A stretch of 64,000 nucleotides of DNA from Methanosarcina sp. KYL-1 (lineage in GTDB: Archaea; Halobacteriota; Methanosarcinia; Methanosarcinales; Methanosarcinaceae), in the NCBI RefSeq assembly GCF_024372725.1, contig NZ_VOUA01000018.1, positions 1 through 64,000 of the forward strand. The letters are read 5' to 3'. The translations under genes were made by a program, and so were the position numbers. The number at the start of each line of letters is the position of its first letter. Positions within the stretch are counted from its first letter, which is position 1. Below are positions 7,645-50,992 of the stretch, one piece after another. Below the pieces are notes generated by a model. That model was not told the DNA's origin and made no database searches. It saw only the letters and a program-made list of their open reading frames with translations.

Positions 7645-8206
7645 GGTCTTTTTTCCCAGATTCGATATGAAAAAGATTGCCTTGATCTTATTTAAAAGAA
7701 ATGTAGCCGGATAGAAGCACGATTCTCTTAAAGGGAATACGGGAAAACAAAAACAGGAAAGAAGTCAGGAAAACAAAAAAGAGCAAAGATTGGAAAAAAA
7801 GGAGAAGGAAACAAAAACAAAAAAAGAGCAAAGATCGGAAAAGAAAAAGGAAACGAAAACAACAAAAAAAATAGGAACAAAGATTGGAAAAAAGGGAAAA
7901 GAAAACAAAAAACAGTAACAAAGACAGGAAAAAACAGGAGAAAGAAAGAGCAAAGAAGGGAACAAGAAAACAAAGGTTGAGAAAGAAAAAAGCCAGAAAA
8001 ACCCCGGTTTTTTTGGGGCAAGTAAACAAAACCTGCAGGGAATCCGAAAGTATTTATTCTTTAGCCGAAGTATAAGAAGGTAATTATTAAAATTAAACAA
8101 GTTTACTTGAGTTATTTCCACGTGAATAAAATATGGCAATTATTATATTCATAATGAATTCACAAATTTAATTCACAAACTGTTCGAGCAGAAGGATATG
8201 GTAAAA
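7645..8206. repeat. Divergent intergenic region with purine-rich repeat tract
   Basis: Between about 7735 and 7990 the plus strand is nearly all purine, with an imperfectly repeated unit built on AGAGCAAAGATTGGAAAA. The apparent reading frames on either strand are low-complexity products of this tract. From 8085 to 8190 the DNA is AT-rich and should hold the cobQ promoter; it includes the palindrome CAAGTTTACTTG (near 8098) and a TTCATAATGAA word. Confidence 0.6.
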
Positions 8207-9664
8207 ATGGAGAAGAAAAGCGTCTTGGTCCTGGGAACCGCCTCCCACGTTGGAAAAAGTTCAGTCGTGACTGCCATATGCAGGATCCTGTCCAGAAACT
8301 ACAGGGTTGCCCCCTTCAAGGCTCAGAACATGAGCCTGAACTCCTGGATCACAAAGGACGGGAAGGAAATCGGGATTGCCCAGGCTATCCAGGCAAAGGC
8401 TGCCGGAACCGAACCCACAGCCGATATGAACCCGGTCCTCCTGAAACCCAAAGGAGACTGCGTCTCCCAGGTAATCCTGCTCGGGGAGCCTTATGCGGAT
8501 AAGAGCGCAGGGCAGTACTACGACTCCATAGATGAGATGAACGCTGTCCTGGAAGGAGCCCTGGAAAGGCTCTGGAACGAGCATGACTTTATCGTCATGG
8601 AAGGTGCAGGCGGGGCTGCCGAAATCAATCTCTACGAAAGGGACATCGTAAACGTCGGGACAGCCAGGCTCACGCAGGCTCCGATCATCCTTGTCGGGGA
8701 CATCGAAAGGGGAGGGGTCTTTGCAAGCCTCTATGGCACCATTGCCCTTCTGCCCGATGATGTGCGGAAAAACGTTAAAGGGTTTATCATCAACAAGTTC
8801 AGGGGCGACCTGGAAATCCTGAAGCCAGGCTTAAAACAGCTTGAGGAAAAGACCGGAATCCCGGTACTTGGTGTCCTCCCCTATTTCAAGCTCCATATCC
8901 CCTCCGAAGACTCGGTCTCCCTTGGGGACAAGGAAGGAAAAGAGACGGGGAAAGAAATCGAAATTGCGGTCATCCGCCTGCCCAGGATCTCTAACTTCAC
9001 GGACTTCGAGCCCCTGGAAGGGTTTGCGAAAATCCGCTACGTGGACCTTGACGAAGACCTCGGAAACCCGGACGCGATCATGATCCCCGGAACAAAGAAT
9101 ACGGTCAACGACCTGCTCGACCTGAGGGCAAGCGGCATGGACAAAAAGATCCGGGCATTTAAGGGAAAAATCCCGATCTTCGGCATCTGCGGCGGTTACC
9201 AGATGCTGGGCAAAACAATCTTTGACTCGGGCGTGGAAAACGGGGTCGAAGCGGAATTCGAAGGCCTCGGGCTCCTGGACATCGGGACGAAGTTTGGCGC
9301 CTACAAGAAGAAAACGATCCAGGTCACGAAAAAGGTCAACGCCTACGGCCCGATCCTGGCCCCCCTCGACGGGGAAGAGATAAAGGGATACGAAATCCAC
9401 ATGGGCATAACCGACTCCGGCCGCCCGGTTTTCGGGGACGACGGAGCCATTGACGAAGCCGGCCTTGTAATCGGCACGTACCTGCACGGGCTTTTCGATA
9501 ACAGGAATATCCGCAACGCCCTGATAAAGTACCTCTCCGAGAAAAAAGGGCTCGAATACAGGCCTGAAGAGGCAATGACCGAAGACGAAGCCTACGAAGA
9601 GCTTGCCAGAGTTGTGGAAAGGAACCTCGACATGGAAAAACTCTACGAAATCGTAGGGGCTTAA
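8207..9664 (+). CDS. cobQ: Cobyric acid synthase (glutamine-hydrolysing)
   Basis: A 485-residue cytoplasmic enzyme that amidates four carboxylates of adenosylcobyrinic acid a,c-diamide in corrinoid synthesis. The N-terminal half is a dethiobiotin synthetase-like ATP-binding domain (GTASHVGKSSVVTAICRIL, then MEGAGGAAEINLYERDIVNV). The C-terminal half is a triad-type glutamine amidotransferase with the Cys nucleophile in IFGICGGYQMLG and the His of YEIHMG and GTYLHGLFD. An upstream in-frame ATG at 8198 is only one base after the AAGGA ribosome binding site, whereas the ATG at 8207 is ten bases away, so I chose 8207. Corrinoids are needed for the methyltransferases of methanogenesis. Confidence 0.95.
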   Translation: MEKKSVLVLGTASHVGKSSVVTAICRILSRNYRVAPFKAQNMSLNSWITKDGKEIGIAQAIQAKAAGTEPTADMNPVLLKPKGDCVSQVILLGEPYADKSAGQYYDSIDEMNAVLEGALERLWNEHDFIVMEGAGGAAEINLYERDIVNVGTARLTQAPIILVGDIERGGVFASLYGTIALLPDDVRKNVKGFIINKFRGDLEILKPGLKQLEEKTGIPVLGVLPYFKLHIPSEDSVSLGDKEGKETGKEIEIAVIRLPRISNFTDFEPLEGFAKIRYVDLDEDLGNPDAIMIPGTKNTVNDLLDLRASGMDKKIRAFKGKIPIFGICGGYQMLGKTIFDSGVENGVEAEFEGLGLLDIGTKFGAYKKKTIQVTKKVNAYGPILAPLDGEEIKGYEIHMGITDSGRPVFGDDGAIDEAGLVIGTYLHGLFDNRNIRNALIKYLSEKKGLEYRPEEAMTEDEAYEELARVVERNLDMEKLYEIVGA

Positions 9665-9740
9665 ACGGTTGGCTTAAATAGCCCGCAATGCCAGGAAAAA
9701 AGAAACAGAAAGCAAATAATTAACCCAGACAATGAGGAAA

Positions 9741-9761
9741 GGTACTGTACTCCACAGTACC
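9741..9761. terminator. Perfect hairpin downstream of cobQ
   Basis: GGTACTGT and ACAGTACC form a perfect 8-bp stem with a 5-base loop. It lies 77 bases past the cobQ stop codon and is not followed by a T-run on the plus strand, so it is either a processing or stability element of the cobQ transcript or a regulatory site. The arm shares GGTACTG with the loop region of the small RNA candidates that follow. Confidence 0.45.
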
Positions 9762-9810
9762 CAAAAACTCCTTAAAACTGAAATATCCTCAAAATCTAAA
9801 CTTGTTTTTT

Positions 9811-9943
9811 AAAAAAGAGGGTATTGAGCGGTTTTTGGGGAGAATATGGGGAGTATTTTGGAATGAACAATTTTCAGTACCATTGGGGCCAGGTACACTT
9901 TTTGGGGGGTATTGTAAATCTCCAAAAGAGTTTGCCGCTCAAC
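9811..9943 (-). ncRNA. Predicted structured small RNA, copy A
   Basis: Read on the minus strand, a TATA box (AATATATAC, 9965-9973) is centred 27 bases before the TTGAGCGG that begins the element (9942-9935). That arm pairs with CCGCTCAA (9831-9824). Inside it TCTCCAAAA (9919-9927) can pair with TTTTGGGGAGA (9833-9843) with a GG bulge, and GTACC/GGTAC (9877-9881 with 9892-9896) form an apical hairpin. Directly after the closing arm comes CCCTCTTTTTT, a typical archaeal oligo-U terminator. This gives a transcript of about 130 nt. Function unknown; a trans-acting regulatory RNA is the natural guess. Confidence 0.6.
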
Positions 9944-9964
9944 ATTTAACAGTTTTGTGTCAAA

Positions 9965-9973
9965 GTATATATT
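9965..9973 (-). promoter_or_regulatory. TATA box of small RNA copy A
   Basis: On the minus strand this reads AATATATAC, 27 bases upstream of the predicted first base of the RNA. Upstream of it an inverted repeat ACTGAA/TTCAGT is present, which could be an operator; the same place in copy B is degenerate. Confidence 0.55.
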
Positions 9974-10101
9974 CATTATGAATTTATTCTACTGAATTTA
10001 GTTCAGTGACAAAGGTTCAAAAAAGCTCTGAATGCCCCACCAAAAAAATAAAGTTTAGTTAGAAGAGTACAAATTTCTCAAAATCCTAAACTTGTTTTTT
10101 T

Positions 10102-10235
10102 AAAAAAGAGGGTATTGAGCGGTTTTGGGGGGAGAATATGGGGAGTATTTTGGAATGAACAATTTTCTGTACCATTGGGGCTAGGTACACTTTTTGGGGG
10201 GTATAGTAAGTCTCCAAAAGAGTTTACCGCTCAAC
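10102..10235 (-). ncRNA. Predicted structured small RNA, copy B
   Basis: The second copy of the element. The outer arms TTGAGCGG/CCGCTCAA (10234-10227 with 10122-10115), the middle TCTCCAAAA/TTTTGGGGGGAGA stem, the apical GTACC/GGTAC hairpin (10169-10173 with 10184-10188) and the oligo-U tract (10107-10102) are all kept. Base differences from copy A fall mainly in loops or turn a Watson-Crick pair into a wobble pair (CCA to CTA opposite TGG). The TATA box sits at the same 27-base spacing. The two RNAs would be near-identical products of separate promoters. Confidence 0.6.
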
Positions 10236-10255
10236 ATTTAACAGTTTTGTTTCAA

Positions 10256-10264
10256 GGTATATAT
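10256..10264 (-). promoter_or_regulatory. TATA box of small RNA copy B
   Basis: On the minus strand this reads as CATATATACC, centred about 27 bases before the predicted start of RNA copy B, as in copy A. The flanking TTCATAATG word is also common to both copies. Confidence 0.55.
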
Positions 10265-10424
10265 GCATTATGAATTTTTTCTACTTAACTTAGATCAGTA
10301 ACTAACGTTCGGAAAAAAGACTCTGAATACTCTACCAAAAAAAATCAAATCATCGAGATGAATATAAAACAAAATAAAAAATGAAGAAATATTTAAAAAA
10401 GATTAAATAGAGGAAAGTTGCGGG

Positions 10425-10631
10425 TCAATCAAAATCCGAATCCTCAAAAAGGAATAACTCATCGATTGTCGTGTCCAGACATCTGGATATCCGGTAAGCA
10501 AGTTTAAGAGAGGGGTTATATTTACCCTTTTCAAGAAAAACTATGGTTTCCCTCCTAACCCCCACCTGCTTTGCGAGGGCTTCCTGGGTAAGGTCATGCC
10601 GGGCTCGGAACTCCTTGATCCTTGTTTTCAC
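10425..10631 (-). CDS. Xre family helix-turn-helix regulator
   Basis: A 68-residue DNA-binding protein made of a single Cro/C1-type helix-turn-helix. Residues 4-60 contain the pattern of the family ([21 protein letters not shown], then [21 protein letters not shown]). It has no ligand domain. It follows a membrane protein gene on the same strand with a gap of 20 bases, so the two form an operon. This small-regulator plus DUF2178-type membrane protein pair is widespread in bacteria and archaea; the target is probably its own promoter. Confidence 0.9.
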
Positions 10632-10651
10632 AGTGCGCCCTCCGAAAGTCC

Positions 10652-11068
10652 TTACTCTACATCACCTTTTTGCATGAAATACCACCTGAATACGTTTGCT
10701 GAAATGATCATAAAGAAAAGCAGGATACCAAGCACCGCCTCCGCCGTAAGCCGGGCAAGGTCGAAGTACTCCACCCAGTAAAGGATCGTAATCAGCACAA
10801 GCGTCAGGAGCCAGGAGTAGGTAATCCCGTAAGCTGCAAGTTTTTTTGTCCTCTCGTCCCTGTCGGGAAGCTCACCCTGCCTGAAAAGTCTGAAGGCCGT
10901 AACAAGAAAGATTATCAGACCCGCATTGATCAGACCAATAGCCAGAGTATCGACTTCAAGAAAAGCTGCCGAAAGCATCCCGGCAACCATCAGGGCTATT
11001 CCGAGAAACAATGTGTACCTGTACTTTCGTCCCATATTTTTCATTTTCGCCCACCAGTAAGAATTCAT
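10652..11068 (-). CDS. DUF2178-like membrane protein
   Basis: A 138-residue protein with four predicted membrane segments (about residues 18-38, 42-62, 83-103, 110-130). The loop between the second and third has [16 protein letters not shown], typical of DUF2178 proteins that accompany small Xre regulators. The start may instead be one of the Met codons at residues 9 or 12. No enzymatic motif is seen. It is the first gene of a two-gene operon with the regulator downstream and may signal to it or be its target. Confidence 0.75.
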
Positions 11069-50228: not shown

Positions 50229-50992
50229 GAAAAGAAACCGGGAGTAAAACCAAAAATAAAACCGAAAATAAAACCGAAAATAAAACCAAAAATAAAACCA
50301 AAAATAAAACCAAAAATAAAACATGGAATAGGACCGGAAAAAGGAAACCGGCGAGAGAAAAAATGAAGCAAAAGAAAGGAAAAGTAGAGAAGACCAAACT
50401 AAATATTACTTGTATCTACTAAAAAACAATATTAAAAACAAATCAGTGAACGGGGTTTTTTGAAGGAGGTTAAAATATGTTGGATTTGTTTTTTATCAAA
50501 TGAATTTGATTTTGAGCGGAACCCGTTCACCAGTTCACAGTGACGATTAAAACCATATATAATCTTTTTGGTATGCACAAAATTGACATCCTTTTTGTGT
50601 CAAAAAGGACAGATTTTTCCTACATATTCAGTACTTTTTTTCCACTGAAAACTAATCGAAATTTTACTTATCACCAGAGGGAAAATCCCGGGAATCCTGC
50701 AAGAAATATTTTGCCGGAAAAAGAGAAGTAAACCAAAAAGAGGGTTAGGAAGACTCTGGATAAGTATCAATGAATTTTTAGAATTCGAGCTAAATATTAG
50801 AAGGAATTCTACAAAGCCATATATATAATAATTAATATAGTATAATCTGGAGCAAGTATGTGCTATGTAGAGCAAGTCTGCATTTGCCTGCATGCATGCA
50901 CCGATAAAAAGGGCGGGCCTGTGCCGGGGAATGTTTCGGAAAGCTGAAACAGAACACAGGGCCGGTAAGAAAATTAAATTGAGGGATTTGAT
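50229..50992. repeat. 12-bp tandem repeat and long leader region
   Basis: From about 50242 to 50321 AAAACCAAAAAT and AAAACCGAAAAT units of 12 bases repeat about seven times, starting just after the membrane protein stop. The rest up to 50992 is AT-rich. TTCACCAGTTCACAGTGACG is at 50527; a TATA-like word ATATATATAATAATTAATA is near 50821 and probably serves the next gene. No further gene is seen. Confidence 0.65.

Follow-up and report, generated by a model that had tools for sequence, protein, structure and literature searches.

On the minus strand of the 64,000-nt stretch of Methanosarcina sp. KYL-1 DNA analysed here (the window), a unit of about 290 bp that takes in a promoter region as well as a putative small RNA (sRNA) gene is present twice, head to tail, at 9781-10345. 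In a repeat search of positions 9000-11000 the longest direct repeat (D1) spans 193 nt, its two copies being 90% identical without gaps and spaced 292 apart, with further repeats flanking it, and the aligned RNA parts of the two copies are 94.9% identical. The D1 repeat bears out the duplication claimed in the original prediction, while the exact spacing given there, 290 bp, has to be widened to 290-292.

The sRNA gene of copy 1 occupies 9811-9942 (about 130 nt; 5' end near 9942, U-run at 9816-9811) and that of copy 2 occupies 10102-10234 (about 131 nt; 5' end near 10234, U-run at 10107-10102), both on the minus strand. Each is preceded on that strand by a core promoter composed of AAATTCATAATG and a TATA element, AATATATA in copy 1 (9966-9985, with the TATA element at 9973-9966) and CATATATA in copy 2 (10258-10277, with the TATA element at 10265-10258), and in both copies the TATA element has its centre about 27 nt before TTGAGCGG, as had been read. 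TTGAGCGG is the 5' arm of a closing stem, P1 (9935-9942 in copy 1, 10227-10234 in copy 2), whose 3' arm, CCGCTCAA, follows some 110 nt on (9824-9831 and 10115-10122); 3' of this arm stands CTCTTTTTT, which contains the U-run end (9819-9811 and 10110-10102), so that the predicted order of arm, partner and oligo-U agrees in position in both copies.

The minimum-energy fold has P1 closing around two adjacent hairpins, P2 and P3; compared with dinucleotide shuffles its energy is lower, z being -2.6 in copy 1 and between -3.6 and -3.8 in copy 2. P3 is a C-loop hairpin, GTACC(TGGCCCCAAT)GGTAC at 9877-9896 in copy 1 and GTACC(TAGCCCCAAT)GGTAC at 10169-10188 in copy 2, and the predicted P2 (9900-9927 and 10192-10219), which reads CTTTTGG...CCAAAAAG in the window copies, carries a C-rich loop between TTTTGG and CCAAAA. 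A middle stem and an apical hairpin had been described as nested: both do lie inside the closing stem, but TTTTGG/CCAAAA and GTACC/GGTAC stand side by side and not one within the other. The rule that the copies differ outside the stems or by a wobble pair is broken once, at closing-stem pair 9, where copy 1 has C/A in place of the U-A of copy 2. The single-stranded segment ACTCCCCATATTCT (9841-9854 in copy 1, 10133-10146 in copy 2), near-invariant among the homologues of type A defined below, is a candidate pairing region. The conserved unpaired parts are C-rich, comprising the CCCCAA loop of P3 and ACUCCCCAUAUUCUC before the 3' arm, and such motifs occur two or three times per molecule inside the closed architecture.

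Distribution, covariation and promoter of the family

A comparison with Rfam (4227 models) gave no match at the gathering score, nor any up to an E-value of 5, in agreement with the earlier statement that no described RNA matched this sequence. Of 60 relatives, 9 yielded related sequence in a plain DNA search, and every one of the 9 belongs to the same genus; the covariance-model search of Methanosarcina genomes proposed with the original prediction, run with a first model that drew on ten such sequences, placed members in most of the genus (about 23 of 31 genomes). Individual loci fall into two classes, type A, at 114-152 bits and with the two window copies among its members, and type B, which is divergent and scores 23-47 bits; inside one genome A and B are 46-55% identical, and they form separate groups in the tree. 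When P1 and P3 were supplied as structure, the resulting second model extended the family to four genomes of a sister genus (E 1e-7 to 1e-12), where the loci show the promoter and the stem.

Several further matches were set apart from the family. A third copy in the window's own genome (C4:119367) was rejected since it looks like coding sequence, and ten equal-scoring 117-nt matches of the second model in G017 (E 0.011; on C3, C16, C40, C45, C63, C88, C112, C121, C137 and C179) appear to be a repeat or mobile-element end and not family members. A short C-rich RNA-like gene at G002:C1:3570080-3570168 (L066 5081-5169, plus strand), in which GTGAGCGGG and CCCGCTCAC form a closing stem, CCCCCCACTCCCC motifs recur and an A/T-rich promoter-like stretch lies upstream, is possibly a remote relative or an analogue.

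Among the homologues, the comparison on which the original prediction had staked its fold, the stems are kept and show compensatory changes. Across 29 sequences P1 is 99% and P3 85% paired; with these sequences fitted to the structure, 94% of the cells of P1 and P3 pair, 7 of 13 pairs are changed on both sides, and the double-changed cells number 37 against a shuffled mean of 10.7, slid structures giving 2-6 such cells and 30-41% pairing. All five homologous pairs of P3 have changed on both sides among relatives. Covariation was also sought for P2 in the relatives and lent it no support, unlike P1 and P3. Because a fitted alignment is biased towards its structure, an independent MAFFT alignment of type B matters here: with P1 extended to 17 pairs it is 90% paired and holds 14 double changes (5.7 when shuffled, 1-5 when slid), with arms such as TTGAATGG/CCATTCAA in the M. 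mazei-like genome G026 and TTGAGTGG/CCACTCAA in G004. An alternative type B helix, GGAGG with a nearby CCUCC, is 79% paired with no double change, so the P1 extension is the better supported of the two.

The promoter element AAATTCAyAATGmATAAATA keeps a constant spacing to the RNA in almost all copies, whether of type A, of type B or from the sister genus, copy B of G030 being the exception, and it is kept while the surrounding sequence diverges. In a search for a regulon sharing this promoter, the pattern at 3 mismatches matched mostly the sRNA family, the rest remaining near control frequency. Immediately 5' of the element, type A copies and the B copies of genomes carrying both classes have a dyad (TGATCTTAGATCA, TTAATCTAATTAA; TGAACTAAATTCA in copy 1), a possible regulator site that in the window corresponds to CTGAACTAAATTCAGTAG at 9989-10006 and, in degenerate form, to CTGATCTAAGTTAAGTAG at 10281-10298 (both minus strand); the dyad suggests a dimeric regulator. 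Comparison at the sequence level thus supports, beyond a single genome, the original reading of two paralogous structured RNAs of about 130 nt, each apparently with its own promoter and terminator, with homologues whose stems are kept by compensatory changes.

A weak match of the first covariance model (E 0.34) at 50430-50530, minus strand, belongs to a separate RNA with a TATA element, a GTGAACGGG...CCCGTTCAC closing stem and a U-rich end. Related sequence is present in 27 of the 31 genus genomes, the RNA itself being covered in about two dozen. Nine loci were aligned, and in all nine genomes read the segment CAAATCCAACATATTTTAACCTCC (50465-50488) is a perfect 24-nt complement of GGAGGTTAAAATATGTTGGATTTG, the Shine-Dalgarno sequence and start codon of mtaC, which encodes the methanol corrinoid protein (NCBIfam equivalog; site near G000:C4 211305-211328). 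Both in the window's genome and in G026, the same region pairs with the ribosome-binding site and start of ramA (site near G000:C32 8103-8135), the gene for the methylamine corrinoid protein reductive activase, and in G026 it also pairs with the ribosome-binding site of a second mtaC-like gene. A limited literature search found no published description of this pairing, which likely reflects sRNA control of methylotrophic methanogenesis and is a stronger regulatory hypothesis than any offered by the tandem pair.

Candidate modes of action

For the tandem pair, the gene structure, its conservation, the covarying stems, the conserved promoter, the lack of conserved coding and the recurrent duplication are observed, and what we infer beyond them concerns transcription, trans-action, the pairing mode, the targets and the inducing condition. 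On balance, we consider it probable that the two are sibling sRNAs acting in trans, their exposed C-rich stretches pairing with the ribosome-binding regions of several mRNAs. Each copy would be transcribed from its own TATA promoter and ended at its U-run terminator; the long-range 5'/3' stem would hold the RNA closed and display the CCCCAA loop of P3 and ACUCCCCAUAUUCUC; short seeds in these stretches could pair with G-rich ribosome-binding regions of several mRNAs and adjust their translation; and duplication would give dosage and allow target specificity to diverge. Trans-action by way of short seeds is judged the likeliest mode because masking of ribosome-binding sites is known for Methanosarcina sRNAs, having been reported for sRNA154 and sRNA41 (PMC5867862) and for sRNA162 (PMC3600222; PMC3510493).

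Target searches covered several scales. Against 1,374 predicted start regions of G026 (1.6 Mb, 39% of the genome; start codons called by a simple script, some of them wrong), neither the A nor the B RNA pairs better than its own shuffles, and in the same scan the RNA at 50430-50530, as a positive control, has mtaC as its top hit (z = -12), followed by ramA. Long antisense matches to the conserved 14-mer were limited to scattered, non-orthologous sites, whole-genome blastn in 9 and 8 genomes returned no long conserved target of the most conserved stretches, and the P3 loop has 21 matching sites in its own genome, mostly with two mismatches. A 15-nt type B match that recurs among genomes was rejected as a target, since, judging from the translation, it presumably sits in the C-terminal coding region of histidyl-tRNA synthetase and coding conservation accounts for its recurrence. 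The lack of a target in a scan that works points to short multi-target seeds, to targets in the other 61% of the genome, or to protein binding.

A possibility compatible with trans-action, which we entertain tentatively, is that the pair is orthologous to an RNA already in the M. mazei transcriptome list, such as sRNA41 or an unnamed entry. For M. mazei 208 sRNAs are reported (PMC3600222), the M. mazei-like G026 has both A and B copies, sRNA41 has an anti-ribosome-binding-site action (PMC5867862), and the P3 loop of G026 finds a good partner in the cdhB ribosome-binding site (1.5 percentile). That pairing, however, is not kept in the M. acetivorans-like G015 and is weaker in the window's genome, the ACDS operon overall is not enriched for pairing, and sRNA154 and sRNA162/171 mismatch in place, length or coding content.

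Less likely is an RNA that binds or sequesters protein, either as a sponge for an Lsm, TRAM or other RNA-binding protein or as a polymerase-binding RNA, with the C-rich stretches as protein sites. Such a role would accord with the failure to find an mRNA target in a scan that does recover a likely sRNA-mRNA pair, and with a closed architecture whose interior unpaired C-rich motifs are repeated two or three times, but no k-turn or 6S-like bubble was recognised, Rfam gave no match, and the strong divergence of the A and B interiors within one genome (46-55% identity) is unusual for a common protein ligand.

A further, doubtful reading returns to pairing and sees a family that keeps duplicating in tandem and diverging, in which P1 and the C-loop hairpin stay constant and the segments that pair acquire new specificities. 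In type B, the GGAG could pair either with the 3' CUCC, as in the P1 extension, or with the nearby CCUCC, so that the RNA would have two states, each displaying a different anti-Shine-Dalgarno element.

Genomic setting and duplication history

At most loci the RNA gene points towards the 3' end of a convergent cbiP gene, with cbiP on one side and an archaeal alanine dehydrogenase gene on the other; in the window, this conserved convergent neighbour (cbiP/cobQ, cobyric acid synthase, NCBIfam equivalog) occupies 8198-9664 on the plus strand. That most Methanosarcina and also the sister genus retain this adjacency lends some footing to the idea that the RNA acts on cbiP, through read-through or a long cbiP 3'UTR forming a duplex that affects the cbiP mRNA or titrates the sRNA. 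We regard such action as improbable, because about 150 nt separate the sRNA end from the cbiP stop in the window, the RNA genes of G003 and G005 sit away from cbiP, copy A lies 5-8 kb off in G009 and G030, and several genomes have cbiP with no recognisable RNA beside it. The Xre gene (10425), singled out earlier as the neighbouring regulator, does adjoin the pair upstream, but Xre and membrane-protein genes adjoin RNA genes only in the window and the sister genus and at none of the remaining Methanosarcina loci inspected, and for this reason Xre is probably not part of the sRNA system.

An open frame common to family members was not found across types A and B. A small mRNA, whether its product is a peptide of some 23 aa read from ATGGTA... 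in the 3' half or a leaderless one that begins at a 5' TTG/ATG, is very improbable: copy 1 can be read as 24 codons and copy A of G026 as 23, with SKI(L/T)PIFSP common to both, and of the 314 small ORFs newly found in M. mazei 64 are located on sRNAs already reported (PMC11456600), but some type A members lack the start codon (G006 and G005 have TTG, G003 an immediate stop), frames shift among members and even between the two window copies, nothing similar occurs in type B, no Shine-Dalgarno sequence precedes the start, and it is helices, not codons, that track conservation.

In the tree, the two window copies group together, as do the two copies of G076 (91.9% identical, spacing 319); with the A and B groups, these pairs point to tandem duplication or homogenisation of tandem copies on at least three occasions. 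Between the second RNA copy and cbiP, G076 also carries a 14-bp tandem array (TTTTTGTTTGAATA; L155 5218-5398). In G003 (L045 4851-5291), the A and B copies lie together, away from cbiP and close to a 146-aa frame that looks like an IS200-type transposase, which suggests that the pair moved as a unit.

Significance and relation to known small RNAs

To our knowledge, few archaeal sRNAs have been defined through covariation, and the present family supplies a model, a syntenic anchor (cbiP) and a conserved promoter. Its natural one-copy, two-copy and A/B states allow sRNA duplication and divergence to be compared in the genetically tractable Methanosarcina, where the occurrence of the A/B pair in M. 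mazei-like and M. acetivorans-like genomes makes deletion tests practical. The search has additionally revealed, in the same window, a second RNA that is predicted to pair strongly with genes for the use of methanol and methylamine.

Bacterial sibling sRNAs are multi-copy and direct unpaired C-rich seeds against Shine-Dalgarno sequences; the likeness of the window RNAs to them is one of description, and the window RNAs differ in their archaeal promoters and long-range closing stem. Within the genus, sRNA154 of M. mazei is likewise intergenic, conserved in Methanosarcina and furnished with exposed anti-ribosome-binding-site loops, whereas its place (MM3337-MM3338), its NrpR operator (GGTA-N6-TACC) and its leaderless 20-aa ORF (nt 4-66) have no counterpart found in the window RNAs (PMC3177094; PMC5867862; PMC11456600). 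Identity with sRNA154 was rejected on inspection, in view of the missing leaderless 20-aa ORF and of upstream dyads that are TGATCTTAGATCA- or TTAATCTAATTAA-like and not an NrpR operator. With sRNA41 of M. mazei, the window RNAs share the proposed mechanism of ribosome-binding-site masking; their complementarity to its ACDS targets is neither convincing nor conserved, cdhB alone giving one good site, strongest in G026, and the ACDS/sRNA41 hypothesis is therefore disfavoured.

The likeness is greatest to sRNA162/171 of M. mazei, which are genus-restricted, intergenic and duplicated siblings, each with its own promoter, with compensatory changes between them, several stem loops and a variable unpaired region (PMC3510493). 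They are 191 nt long and lie in the MM2441-2442 and MM2448-2449 intergenic regions, in a neighbourhood with the ArsR gene MM2441 and its homologue MM2446, whereas the window RNAs measure about 130 nt and lie beside cbiP; and their copies have transposase genes in between and are antisense to a neighbouring leader, in contrast to the head-to-tail window copies (PMC3510493). Identity was rejected on the grounds of length and the ArsR neighbourhood, and sRNA162/171 is the closest precedent in the genus for sibling sRNAs.
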